DNA of 41,999 nt, taken from assembly GCF_020630935.1 (NCBI RefSeq), contig NZ_JAHDIG010000014.1, positions 6,012 through 48,010 of the forward strand. The letters run 5' to 3'. The stretch's first letter is position 1. Every line of letters begins with the position of its first letter. Source of the DNA: Bernardetia sp. (GTDB lineage: Bacteria > Bacteroidota > Bacteroidia > Cytophagales > Bernardetiaceae). Positions 16,028 through 20,346 of the stretch are shown one piece after another. Both the position numbers and the translations under genes were made by a program. Below the pieces are notes generated by a model that ran no database searches, was not told where the DNA came from, and worked only from the letters and a program-made list of their open reading frames with translations.

Positions 16028-18685
16028 ATGGACGCACAACGCTGGCAACTCATTCAAGATATTTTTTCAGAAGCATTAGAACTACAAGGAAAGGAGCGAG
16101 AAGATTATATTCAATCCAAAACAGAAGGCGATACAGAACTTAAAGAAGAAGTTGAAAAGCTCATAGCAGGAGCAGAAAAAGCAGATAGTTTTTTTGGAAA
16201 TTTAGAAGATAAGGTATCTGATGTGTGGCAAAAAGCTGCCGAAACTACACTGTTGCAAGAAGGCGAGAAAGTAGGAGTTTATCAGATTGAAAAAGAACTG
16301 GGGCGTGGTGGAATGGCTGTGGTGTATTTAGCAAAGCGAATTGATGGAGAATTTGAGCAGAAAGTAGCGATTAAAGTGATTAAACGTGGAATGGACTCTG
16401 ACGAAGTTTTGAGGCGTTTCATGGCTGAAAAACAGATTTTGGCTTCACTCAATCATCCCAATATTTCAAAAATATTGAATAGTGGGCTTGCGCCAAATGG
16501 TTTGCCTTATTTTGTGATGGAATACATTGAAGGAGATGATTTAGTAGAATATTGCAATAAAAATAATCTTTCCATAAAAGAACGACTGGAAGTTTTTATT
16601 CAAGTATGTAGAACCATTCAGCACGCTCATAGGAATCTTGTTATTCATAGAGATTTGAAACCATCTAATATCATTGTAGAAAATAGCAAAGAGAACCTAC
16701 GTAATTCTTTAAAATTACTAGACTTCGGAATTGCAAAGGTTTTAGATGAAGAAAATGACCTCCGAACCAAAACGGCAATGCGTCTGCTTACGCCAGAGTA
16801 TGCTAGTCCAGAGCAAATACAGGGCGCAGTTATCAGTACGTCAAGTGATATTTATCAGCTTGGTATTTTACTTTTTGAGCTACTTAGTGGGCGACGACCT
16901 TTCGTCTTTGATAAAAATGAATCGGTTTTGGAGTGGGAGAAAAAACTTACTACTTCCCAAACACCAACCCCTTCCAAAATTTATGAGCAGTTTTCAGAAC
17001 AAGAAGCGAAAGAAATAGCCAAACAGCGTAAGACAGACAAAAATCAACTTAAAAAAGTATTAAAATCTGAACTACAATCGATTGTCTTGATGGCACTTCG
17101 AACCGAACCCGAAAGGCGTTACCAGTCGGCAGAACAGTTAGCAGAAGATATTGAGCGTTATCTTACCAATCGTCCAATAATAGCCAAACCCAACTCGTGG
17201 GGTTACAAAACAAGAAAAGCATTTGAGAGAAACAAACTCGCTTGGGTCGGTTTTACACTTCTATTTTTAGCACTTGTTGGAGGAATTTTTGGAACAACTT
17301 ATCAAGCCTACATTGCAAAAAAAGAAAAGCAACGTGCAGAACAGGAAAAACTAAGAGCCGAACAAACCCTAGATTTTATTACCGACTTGTTTAAAAGTCC
17401 AGACCCACGTCTGCAAGACTCAGAAGGAAAAGACATCAAAGTAAGTGATTTTTTGAAGGCAAGTGAGAAGAAAGTATTTAGAAATTTGCAAGACCAACCA
17501 GTTCTTCAAAATGAACTTTTGACAATTCTCTCTAATTTGTATGATAACATGAATCTTGCTAAGGAAGGAACAGAATTAGAGAAAAAACTCTTACCAAAAT
17601 TCATAGAAGAGTATGGAGAAAATTCGCCACAGGCAGCAGAAAGCATACGAAAACTAGCAGCTTGGTCTTTTGAAACTAGCAAAGACGTAGAAAAAACAGA
17701 TTCTATTTTTAATGAAGCCTTTGATATTTTTGAAAAAACGTATGACAAACAGCATCCCAAATATGCAACGTTACTCAATGAATACGGACTATTTTTGCAA
17801 ATTTCAAGAGCTGATGTAGCAAAAGCTGACTCTGTTTTGAAAGTTGCTGGAGAGATATTTATTCAAAATGATACAATAACAGCCGATTATGGAAACAATC
17901 TGTCTTTTCGTGGACTTATTGCCAACCAAATGGGAAGAGTAGATGAAGCACTTGATTTGTATGAAAGAGAATTATTCATTAAGCAAAAAATAAATCAAGA
18001 TTCGGTTGGTCTAGCACTTGTCAAGATAAATATTGCTTCTATTTATTTTAAAAAACAAAATCTTATTCGTGCCGAAGCTCTCAACAAAGAAGCATTGAAA
18101 ATAATGGAAAGAGAATTAGGCACAGAACACAAACACACTCTGACAGCACTTAATAACCTAGCAGCCGTTTATGCAGCGCAGTCTAGGTACGATTTGGGAA
18201 AACCAGTTGCCCTACGTGCTTATCATGAGTTTACAAAAAAATATGGAAGGAAAAATGATAAAACAGCAGCAGCAGCACTCAACACAGGCTTCTATTATGT
18301 AAAACTAAATCAGTTTGATTCTGCCTTAGTTTTGATAAATGAAGCTAACCAAACCTACCAAGAACTTTTTGGAGAAAACCATTATGTTACGGGAGTTCCA
18401 CTTTTGGCTAGAGTAGAAATTTGGTTAGAAAAAAATCAGCCTCAAAAAGCACTAGCAGATGCTCAAGAAGCTGACAAACTTCTTTCCACTCCACCTATTC
18501 CAACTATTCATTATTATAGAGGAATGGTAAACTTTCGCTTAGGAAGTAGTTATGTAGCCTTAAACCAAAAAGAAAAAGGCAAAGAATATCTACAAAAAGC
18601 TGTAGATATTCTAATGCAAAGTAATGGAGAAACTCATTATGCCACAAAAGCTGCTGTAGCAGAATTAAATACTTTGTTTGAGTAA
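16028..18685 (+). CDS. Transmembrane Ser/Thr protein kinase with TPR-like C-terminal region
   Basis: This 885-residue protein has an N-terminal helical region (RWQLIQDIF, typical of bacterial Pkn kinases with TPRs). A complete Hanks-type kinase domain follows: glycine loop GRGGMAVVY, Lys116 in VAIKVI, catalytic HRDLKPSN (207-214), DFG at 232-234 and the SPE variant of APE. After a short linker there is one membrane helix (about 404-426) and then a coiled stretch. About 450 residues of tetratricopeptide-like repeats follow (for example ALNNLAAVYAAQSRYDLG). The kinase therefore faces the cytoplasm and the TPR region the periplasm. The signal and targets are unknown. The 3' end overlaps the convergent Thg1-like gene by 21 nt. 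Confidence 0.93.
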   Translation: MDAQRWQLIQDIFSEALELQGKEREDYIQSKTEGDTELKEEVEKLIAGAEKADSFFGNLEDKVSDVWQKAAETTLLQEGEKVGVYQIEKELGRGGMAVVYLAKRIDGEFEQKVAIKVIKRGMDSDEVLRRFMAEKQILASLNHPNISKILNSGLAPNGLPYFVMEYIEGDDLVEYCNKNNLSIKERLEVFIQVCRTIQHAHRNLVIHRDLKPSNIIVENSKENLRNSLKLLDFGIAKVLDEENDLRTKTAMRLLTPEYASPEQIQGAVISTSSDIYQLGILLFELLSGRRPFVFDKNESVLEWEKKLTTSQTPTPSKIYEQFSEQEAKEIAKQRKTDKNQLKKVLKSELQSIVLMALRTEPERRYQSAEQLAEDIERYLTNRPIIAKPNSWGYKTRKAFERNKLAWVGFTLLFLALVGGIFGTTYQAYIAKKEKQRAEQEKLRAEQTLDFITDLFKSPDPRLQDSEGKDIKVSDFLKASEKKVFRNLQDQPVLQNELLTILSNLYDNMNLAKEGTELEKKLLPKFIEEYGENSPQAAESIRKLAAWSFETSKDVEKTDSIFNEAFDIFEKTYDKQHPKYATLLNEYGLFLQISRADVAKADSVLKVAGEIFIQNDTITADYGNNLSFRGLIANQMGRVDEALDLYERELFIKQKINQDSVGLALVKINIASIYFKKQNLIRAEALNKEALKIMERELGTEHKHTLTALNNLAAVYAAQSRYDLGKPVALRAYHEFTKKYGRKNDKTAAAALNTGFYYVKLNQFDSALVLINEANQTYQELFGENHYVTGVPLLARVEIWLEKNQPQKALADAQEADKLLSTPPIPTIHYYRGMVNFRLGSSYVALNQKEKGKEYLQKAVDILMQSNGETHYATKAAVAELNTLFE

Positions 18686-19432
18686 AAAGCTATTTATAAA
18701 ATTGTTGTATGCATCTTTCATTTCTAGTTCCATATCAATGTGTAGTTTTCTTCTTTCCGAAAACTTTATTTCTTTGGTAATCGGATTGATGCCTTTTTTT
18801 TGATATGTTTTCCAATATATTCCTATACCTCGTTTTTGCCAGTTTGGCAAATCATTGAAGTTAATGCCATAGCTAAAGAGAAGTTCGTTTTTATCAGCTA
18901 CTGATTTCCCTTCAAGAGTTTGAGTAGCTTCTTTTGCTGAAAAGCCATCTTTTCTGAGCATCCAGTAACAGTGTGCATTGAGTGCATTTCTAAAAGCATC
19001 TTCATTTCTCCAACGAAAATAATCAACAACATCTTCTTTTGTTGGTAATTGTGAAATTCTACAATCGAAAGCAGCTAAGTCATTTAGTAGAAGAGAAAAT
19101 TTTGCACTTGCTTCACCTGCCAAAATAGAATTATATTTTCTCGTTTTCCTATTAAATACTGTTTCATCATGACTAAATAAAAGAGAGATTTCATCACTTT
19201 CTGTATAGCCATACACCACATTAAAACCTACATTCATCAAGTGTTTGACTGTCTCTATCATCATATCCCTAAAACGAATATCAAAAGGAGCTTCAAAGTT
19301 GTGTTTTTGTTTCGTCAGTGTTGTAAAATTTCTACCATCTATCCGAGCTACCATGTACACTTTAGGAAGTATGCACACGTCTGAGTTTGTTTCATAAACT
19401 CTCATTTGTTTGTCTAAGTCATCAAATTTCAT
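18665..19432 (-). CDS. Thg1-like 3'-5' RNA polymerase (tRNAHis guanylyltransferase family)
   Basis: A 255-residue member of the Thg1/TLP family, enzymes that add nucleotides to RNA 5' ends in the 3'-5' direction. Metal-binding motifs are intact: MVARIDGRNF with Asp32, and YTESDEIS with Asp80 and Glu81. NAHCYWMLRKDG, NDLPNWQKRGIGIYWK and the KFSERRKLHID tail also match the family. Bacterial members are generally TLPs that repair truncated tRNA 5' ends rather than add G-1 to tRNAHis. It overlaps the upstream P-loop kinase gene by 11 nt, so the two are translationally coupled. Together they could heal and rebuild damaged RNA ends. Confidence 0.92.
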   Translation of the reverse strand: MKFDDLDKQMRVYETNSDVCILPKVYMVARIDGRNFTTLTKQKHNFEAPFDIRFRDMMIETVKHLMNVGFNVVYGYTESDEISLLFSHDETVFNRKTRKYNSILAGEASAKFSLLLNDLAAFDCRISQLPTKEDVVDYFRWRNEDAFRNALNAHCYWMLRKDGFSAKEATQTLEGKSVADKNELLFSYGINFNDLPNWQKRGIGIYWKTYQKKGINPITKEIKFSERRKLHIDMELEMKDAYNNFINSFLLKQSI

Positions 19433-19865
19433 TCTTCAGTTGAGTTAGTTTTGAACTTTCTGCACTAAAAATGTATATTTCATCAAAACCTTCTTCAAAA
19501 GAAGGAAGTTCCATTTTTTTATGAGTAGATAAAATTCCTACTTTGGCAACCTTAGCTTTTCCTATTCTTAGTTCATTTCGTGCTAAAGCTATTTTTAAAT
19601 TTGTATCAAAATATATAGCAACGACTTTAAACTTCCTTTCTTTCAGCTTTTGTATGTACTTTGCTCGTTCTTTTTTTGTTGGATTGGTATTGTCAATAAC
19701 TAAACGCTGCTGAAACTCTAAACAAAAATCTAATAATTTAGCCTCTTTATTTCTTGTATTGAGTAAGTCTAAACTTATTCTGAGATGTGAATTAAAGTAT
19801 TTTTCCTTATAAAAAGTTGATTTTCCACTGCCTTGTATGCCAATAAAAATTATTGCTTCCATCAA
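19422..19865 (-). CDS. PNKP-like P-loop nucleic-acid kinase (AAA_33 type)
   Basis: A 147-residue single-domain kinase. Walker A is GIQGSGKST (9-17). SLD with Asp33 falls where polynucleotide kinases carry the general base. DNTNP (58-62) followed by KKERAKYI is the pattern seen in the kinase domain of PNKP-type 5' end-healing enzymes. An Arg-containing lid (ARNELRIGK) follows. The family phosphorylates 5'-OH RNA or DNA ends, although some AAA_33 members act on small molecules. It is the first gene of a two-gene unit with the Thg1-like polymerase, and this context favours RNA. There is no phosphatase or ligase domain. Confidence 0.8.
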   Translation of the reverse strand: MMEAIIFIGIQGSGKSTFYKEKYFNSHLRISLDLLNTRNKEAKLLDFCLEFQQRLVIDNTNPTKKERAKYIQKLKERKFKVVAIYFDTNLKIALARNELRIGKAKVAKVGILSTHKKMELPSFEEGFDEIYIFSAESSKLTQLKNEI

Positions 19866-20025: not shown

Positions 20026-20346
20026 ATGAACGGTTCTATTCGCTATCTACAAACTCGTAAGGATAAAAGTGCTATTTTTTTCAAATGTTTGCCTGAAAAA
20101 GTAGCTGCTATTATCATTAATATACAAGCTGGTGCAAATTTTAATTTTTCAGAAGACGTATTAAAAAATGGTCTTTCAGAAGAACAAGCTCCTTTTGTTT
20201 TGGTAAAAAAACAAGACCTTCCCTATACAGGACAGAGAGAAAAAATAATTGAAAGTCTAATTTCAGATGGTTTTGCAGAATCATCAGCACAGGATTTTGA
20301 GCGTGCAGAAAATATCTATCAACAAACTCAAACCAACAATCAATAA
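20026..20346 (+). CDS. Hypothetical protein, 106 aa
   Basis: A small soluble protein that starts MNGSIRYL and has no signal or membrane segment. Residues 1-60 look alpha/beta. The C-terminal 30 residues are helical and Gln-rich (ENIYQQTQTNNQ). A -7 box lies at 19982. I do not recognise a family. It is divergent from the PNKP-like gene, and its codon use and base composition match the neighbours. Confidence 0.55.
   Translation: MNGSIRYLQTRKDKSAIFFKCLPEKVAAIIINIQAGANFNFSEDVLKNGLSEEQAPFVLVKKQDLPYTGQREKIIESLISDGFAESSAQDFERAENIYQQTQTNNQ

Follow-up and report, generated by a model that had tools for sequence, protein, structure and literature searches.

A kinase–Thg1 gene pair as a probable RNA 5′-end repair module in Bernardetia and other bacteria

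Main

A 41,999-nucleotide (nt) stretch of the genome of Bernardetia sp. (Bacteroidota, Cytophagales; RefSeq assembly GCF_020630935.1, contig NZ_JAHDIG010000014.1, positions 6,012 to 48,010; here called the window) carries two overlapping genes, one for a stand-alone kinase of the polynucleotide-kinase fold and one for a Thg1-like protein (TLP) of the 3′-to-5′ polymerase family. We propose that the two probably form one translationally coupled RNA 5′-end repair module that heals and rebuilds RNase-damaged RNA. The gene structure, the folds, the conserved catalytic residues, the tight linkage and the genome-level co-occurrence with Pnkp are the basis of this proposal, and from them we infer that the kinase acts on RNA, how the steps follow one another, that the damage comes from RNases and that translation is coupled.

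Two overlapping genes for a kinase and a TLP

Both genes lie on the minus strand, with the kinase gene (19422..19862; 146 amino acids (aa)) directly upstream, in the reading direction, of the TLP gene (18665..19432; 255 aa). The 11-nt overlap described in the original prediction, which had been made from the sequence alone, was recovered at 19422..19432 (minus strand): the Thg1 start lies inside the last codons of the kinase, and TGATGA supplies a second in-frame stop in the kinase frame. Translational coupling is the simplest reading that this overlap suggests. The predicted span of 18665-19865 holds for both open reading frames but not for the kinase start, which is the ATG at 19862 rather than the TTG at 19865, one codon upstream; a methionine occupies the position of this ATG in at least 90% of 65 kinase relatives, in rows trimmed to begin there.

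The P-loop and DNTNP pattern ascribed to the kinase are both present (P-loop GIQGSGKS), and Pfam AAA_33 matches the protein at 1.7e-10. Among solved structures, mammalian PNKP comes closest (phmmer 6.7e-10; profile 1.3e-19). An AlphaFold2 (AF2) model built from 65 sequences (mean predicted local distance difference test score, pLDDT, 94.7) had as its top structural matches the PNKP kinase domain (Z 18.6, root-mean-square deviation 2.0, 138 residues) and the C. thermocellum Pnkp kinase domain (Z 18.4), with two fungal kinases level with them (Z 18.3 and 18.1). Lower matches were PSTK (Z 15.7), zeta toxin (14.9), T4 Pnk (14.0) and PFKFB (~14). K14, D32, T59, N60, R66, N96 and R99 are among the residues invariant in the 65 kinases. 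With this fold, the P-loop lysine (K14) and D32, which aligns with the PNKP aspartate that we take to be catalytic, the protein has the hallmarks of a polynucleotide kinase and probably puts phosphate on broken RNA ends. The fold and P-loop are common to T4 Pnkp, mammalian PNKP and the C. thermocellum Pnkp kinase domain, and the aspartate aligns to PNKP; unlike these, the window kinase stands alone, without a 3′-phosphatase or ligase domain. It is not a three-domain bacterial Pnkp (~850 aa), scoring only 33 bits against TIGR04075, whose cut-off is 750.

The TLP matches Pfam Thg1 (5.6e-33, 114.1 bits; cut-off 29.2) and Thg1C (9.6e-18, 65 bits; cut-off 26.3), and its nearest solved relative in a Protein Data Bank search is the TLP 5axk (2e-31). 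As predicted, its catalytic acidic residues are intact: D32, D80 and E81, which from the family motif we take to be the known metal-binding carboxylates, are identical in all 89 aligned Thg1 sequences (the window and 88 others, two of which, L013 and L059, are the same contig). The protein thus belongs to the same family as BtTLP (4KGK), MxTLP and the archaeal TLP (5AXK), can be aligned with known TLPs over the catalytic and C-terminal domains, and shares their catalytic carboxylates. BtTLP uses K43 for ATP activation, according to passages of PMC3701042. By its place in the alignment with solved TLPs, the presumed counterpart is K43 of the window TLP; a lysine stands there in only 15 of the 89 relatives and a valine in 40, so that GTP activation may, as far as sequence can suggest, be usual in this Thg1 clade. 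BtTLP and MxTLP are both described as able to use GTP (in parts of PMC3701042 and PMC6471195). The gene tree places Myxococcaceae relatives inside the window-Thg1 clade, to which MxTLP itself may belong.

Eukaryotic Thg1 and protist mitochondrial TLPs serve housekeeping tRNA maturation, by G-1 addition to tRNA-His or by 5′ editing of acceptor stems (passages of PMC6471195 and PMC3701042). It is quite unlikely that the window TLP does the same, with the kinase as an accessory. Five tRNA predictions in the genome have a G-U at pair 1, a possible editing target. However, G-1 and the C73 opposite it are both encoded in the only tRNA-His gene found, so that G-1 addition by a Thg1 would be redundant; this marks the protein as a TLP rather than a tRNA-His-maturing Thg1. 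A survey of 42 tRNA matches, in which ARAGORN gave several spurious registers and two tRNAs at contig ends had unreadable acceptor stems, was limited to cleanly registered stems read by eye, and these showed no mismatch in pairs 1–3 apart from one Met tRNA that is presumably the initiator. With G-1 encoded and the stems clean, G-1 addition is unneeded and 5′ editing is without an evident target; we therefore set this role aside. The gene is also patchy, being found in three of seven genomes of the genus and in nine of 59 sampled from the order (the window's own included). The tRNA-His of the window's genome (L114:1469-1542) has a U5-U68 mismatch in its acceptor stem, too deep for known 5′ editing.

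A linked pair in nine phyla

The kinase and Thg1 genes occur together far beyond the window. In a sample of 395 evenly drawn Bacteroidota genomes, the window-type Thg1 is found in four (359–510 bits) and the window-type kinase (204–249 bits) in exactly the same four, adjoining Thg1 in each; the remaining kinase matches reach at most 34.5 bits, and a fifth genome has a different Thg1 type (44 bits). Such exact agreement, with adjacency in every case, means that the pairing is not chance. A wider set of 81 loci comprised the best 80 of 401 confirmed relatives from a named-genome collection, plus one viral contig. Here the kinase lies upstream of Thg1 in 71 loci, in nine of ten phyla; at L080 it is cut by a contig end. 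The conservation that the original prediction had asked for across Bacteroidota is therefore seen, and the pairing is clearly not unique to this genome.

Within the order, seven of the nine Thg1 genomes have the kinase beside Thg1 (one with a DinB-family gene between them, one cut at a contig end), and the other two carry a different Thg1 type, clustered, by eye, with RNA ligase-, macro-, RtcB- and ADP-ribosylglycohydrolase-like genes. Another Thg1 type of Bacteroidota sits with RtcB at L015, L016 and L109; at the first two, RNA ligase-, macro domain-, ATP-grasp- and ADP-ribosylglycohydrolase-like genes were also seen by eye.

Distance matrices of 78 kinase and Thg1 pairs correlated with r 0.67, compared with a maximum of 0.15 in 2000 permutations, indicating that the two genes travel together. 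The gene tree, mostly grouped by phylum, required 14 changes of phylum label compared with a minimum of nine, which points to a few transfers and not to a rapidly mobile element. Of 44 pattern matches in IMG/VR, one (L097) belongs to this clade, and all 122 phage records and 19 plasmid records with a Thg1 showed below 60% identity (32–38% among the 20 phage records listed). An origin in a mobile element or phage was therefore rejected. On L097, the only IMG/VR contig of the clade found, a HipA-family gene (Pfam HipA_C; L097:3976-5274) precedes the pair.

This linkage bears on what the kinase acts on. PSTK, zeta toxin and PFKFB share its P-loop fold class, and a kinase like zeta toxin, gluconate kinase or PSTK could phosphorylate a small molecule or protein, leaving its link to Thg1 regulatory or incidental. 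Since PNKP ranks first by both sequence and structure, and since an unrelated kinase would hardly be linked to an RNA enzyme in nine phyla with a conserved overlap, we regard such a role as very improbable and expect RNA, not a small molecule, to be the substrate of the kinase.

The length of the overlap is itself nearly fixed. Over the 79 loci where both are present (L013 and L059 again being one contig), it measures 11 nt in 66, 14 nt in eight and 4 nt in three; the other two have a gene in between, of the DinB family at L012 and an antisense PemK/MazF-family gene at L036. The typical overlap reads (A/G)TGAARTTTGATGA, with the kinase ending at a double stop and Thg1 starting MKFD(D/E)LD. Thg1 genes without a kinase retain the same start motif, so that coding constraint on Thg1 explains much of the conservation of the overlap. 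The near-constant length, together with the ATTTGAT or GTTTGAT often seen where the kinase frame stops, which we take to resemble the prfB site, could also mean that ribosomes undergo a programmed +1 frameshift in the overlap and additionally make a kinase–Thg1 fusion protein. We give this hardly any credence: most loci have the double stop TGATGA in the kinase frame, ATT and GTT as P-site codons should slip poorly, overlaps of 14 and 4 nt and loci with a gene in between exist, and the start motif kept by kinase-less Thg1 genes shows that coding constraint alone explains the sequence. The PemK/MazF-family toxin gene between kinase and Thg1 (L036:5437-5913, minus strand) belongs to an Anaerolineales locus, and MazF-like genes, identified by eye, lie upstream of kinase-less Thg1 at L021 and L026.

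Repair genes around the pair

RNA-repair genes were sought by direct queries within the fetched flank of each of the 81 loci, up to 6 kb and with no random-locus control. Eleven loci have such a neighbour (L021, L026, L029, L032, L036, L038, L048, L053, L061, L068 and L085), a count that takes the ADP-ribosylglycohydrolase of L036 as repair-associated and includes L021 and L026, near copies without a kinase, as well as L029 (RtcB in two pieces) and L085, both weak because they have RtcB alone and RtcB is common. Two cyanobacterial contigs (L053 and L068) show the order Hen1, kinase, Thg1, Pnkp, with families confirmed by Pfam, and a third (L061) shows Hen1, kinase and Thg1 before the contig ends. 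At L048, a Cytophagales metagenome-assembled genome, Hen1–Pnkp lies ~2 kb downstream of the pair; on the other side, ~4 kb upstream, a gene whose product ends in a ribonuclease domain (PF00545, barnase family) is followed by a barstar gene. A stretch of 13 kb here brings together a ribonuclease with its inhibitor and two modules for repair. In Pseudobacteroides (L032), kinase–Thg1 is followed by RNA ligase, RNA ligase 2 and HD-Pnk. A mobilizable Deinococcus plasmid carries a more distant kinase–Thg1 pair (46% and 34% identical), then Hen1 and RlaP, a nucleotidyltransferase that Pfam names for an 'RNA repair pathway'.

Further observations concern these surroundings. The PF00545 gene, the barstar gene and a run of small genes upstream (L048:62-5479) resemble an RNase toxin/immunity array. 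RlaP-type nucleotidyltransferases follow Thg1 at L163:4857-5774, L164:7079-7993 and L021:2983-4841, on a Thiodictyon plasmid and in Anaerolineae without a kinase, where one partner seems to replace the other; the Deinococcus plasmid has both. Upstream of a kinase-less Thg1 in Saprospiraceae (L030:1295-3323), an AAA ATPase (Pfam AAA_21) and an HNH-like gene (by eye, without a Pfam match) look PtuAB-like by eye.

No third gene recurs with the pair to a degree that would single it out. Clustering the neighbours of the 81 loci gave 43 clusters present in at least three loci, of which the largest beyond Thg1 and the kinase (10 and seven loci) are, by eye, sensor-kinase-like and ABC-transporter-like, both common families, and many others either recur among closely related genomes or resemble spurious antisense frames. 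Hen1 forms a cluster of four loci (L048, L053, L061 and L068), as does Pnkp (L038, L053 and L068, plus L039, which joins only by its phosphatase).

At the genome level, we counted Pnkp above its curated cut-off (750 bits). Among the fetched Bacteroidota genomes that carry this Thg1, 16 of 38 have Pnkp, compared with four of 391 sampled genomes without this Thg1 (Fisher p 2e-15); the count is 14 of 35 once L018, L027 and L030, which lack the kinase, are excluded. The L018 and L030 genomes have Pnkp over the cut-off, and in the L091 genome an 878-aa frame is Pnkp by length only. With corrections that are rough and were made by hand, the association persisted when genomes were collapsed by lineage (9 of 22 compared with 4 of 167, p 4e-7) and among those listed of at least 5 Mb (15 of 32 compared with 1 of 27, p 2e-4).

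The window's own genome has one Thg1. On another contig (C2; the pair is on C14) it encodes Hen1 and a full-length Pnkp with its ligase domain (1265 bits) side by side, outside the operon of the pair, and elsewhere an HD-Pnk-like protein, whose HD domain falls just under the Pfam cut-off, and RtcB. The search for an RNA ligase elsewhere in the genome, as the original prediction advised, thus found the Pnkp ligase domain and RtcB, and its suggestion of a repair pathway without a ligase fails at the genome level.

Several observations weigh against a repair module. Eight related genomes have this Thg1 with the kinase nowhere in the assembly, so the kinase is not strictly required, although L021 and L026 among them are near copies and assemblies may be incomplete; a ninth genome, that of L030, gave only a 20-residue kinase match, on another contig. 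In 70 of the 81 loci no RNA-repair gene was detectable by our queries within the flank, and the window neighbours of the pair that were checked include neither a toxin nor a ligase nor Hen1. The PADLOC defence library returned no family for either protein at E up to 1, and no measured activity was found for the kinase or any close relative. Shared lineage and large genomes may partly explain the Pnkp association; in the evenly drawn sample, only one of the four pair genomes, the window's own, has Pnkp (p 0.05), and no Pnkp above the cut-off is present in the L017 genome, which belongs to the genus of the window, indicating that the pair does not need Pnkp.

One neighbouring gene, with a weak DUF6495 match (window 20026-20346, plus strand), is present in all seven genomes of the genus. 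In G003 this DUF6495-like gene lies ~700 kb from the pair, so that the pair does not occupy the same genomic site across the genus.

Discussion

How such a module might work can be set out as a series of steps. A ribonuclease, most plausibly a toxin, would damage a tRNA, or another structured RNA, and leave it with a 5′-OH; the kinase would turn this 5′-OH into a 5′-phosphate; and the TLP would activate the phosphate with ATP or GTP and add nucleotides 3′-to-5′ against the opposite strand, restoring the lost 5′ nucleotides. Joining of the two pieces, where needed, would fall to separately encoded ligases (here Pnkp–Hen1 or RtcB). Passages in the literature state that ribotoxins mostly leave 5′-OH and 2′,3′-cyclic phosphate ends (PMC4411300) and that TLPs repair 5′-truncated tRNAs in vitro (PMC3701042, PMC6471195). 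The substrate of characterised Thg1 enzymes is, in those of PMC2904730, a 5′-phosphate, and a kinase that phosphorylates 5′-OH ends would therefore fit directly before the TLP.

The ligases that adjoin the pair or co-occur with it at the genome level are compatible with a different division of labour, in which the kinase supplies the 5′-phosphate and the TLP mainly makes a 5′-activated (App/Gpp) RNA end as a donor for ligation. Ligation via 5′ App was offered as an alternative in PMC2904730, and activation of the end in this way is the first stage of the Thg1 reaction (parts of PMC2904730 and PMC3701042). An enzyme that only activates ends may not need the three polymerase carboxylates, which are invariant. 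Moreover, Pnkp and RNA ligases themselves adenylylate RNA ends. We consider this alternative unlikely, and prefer healing of the end by the kinase and rebuilding by the TLP.

The two protein families and the proposed logic are not new, and the guess that the pair might be a variant of a known theme proved right. Anantharaman, Iyer and Aravind reported in 2010 that a polynucleotide-kinase-family gene is the most persistent neighbour of bacterial Thg1, and they proposed RNA repair by the kinase and then Thg1 (PMC2904730). The same source reports RNA ligase and macro-domain neighbours of Thg1 and lists Microscilla marina among its abbreviations, and from its abstract and passages we see no clear difference between that neighbourhood and the window pair. 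The prediction of an RNA-repair pair therefore gains support from conservation, fold and context, restates a published hypothesis, and loses its ligase-free element. What we add to the published pairing is quantitative support, in the form of counts, overlap and Pnkp co-occurrence; the overlap length, the co-occurrence counts and the Hen1–Pnkp linkage do not appear in the abstract and passages of PMC2904730. A Thg1–Hen1 linkage was not found in the literature searched, where the RNA-repair papers on Pnkp/Hen1 do not mention Thg1; a 2016 Nucleic Acids Research review of RNA repair systems, outside that search, may cover it.

The Hen1–Pnkp RNA-repair system has a 5′-kinase of the same fold as one of its parts, and the pair is embedded in or lies beside it at L048, L053 and L068 (at L061 only Hen1 is seen). 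The pair differs in that it includes a reverse polymerase and itself encodes neither a phosphatase nor a ligase. In the Hen1–kinase–Thg1–Pnkp operons, a second kinase is kept in addition to the kinase domain of Pnkp, which suggests that it is dedicated to handing over to Thg1. It is conceivable, though we put it forward only tentatively, that the pair serves bacterial RNA repair as a gap-filling arm, which would rebuild the 5′ nucleotides lost at a break before Pnkp–Hen1, RNA ligase or RtcB seals it.

The Thg1 family is described as the only known exception to 5′-to-3′ nucleic acid synthesis (PMC2904730), and passages of a 2019 review describe the in vivo role of bacterial TLPs as still open (PMC6471195). 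A kinase partner that travels with the TLP as a unit, together with the strong co-occurrence of the Pnkp ligase, gives these enzymes a concrete and testable role, the repair of RNase-damaged RNA 5′ ends. If the pair is indeed a gap-filling arm, cells could restore RNAs that have lost nucleotides, beyond simple nicks, and bacterial TLPs would have their long-missing in vivo role.

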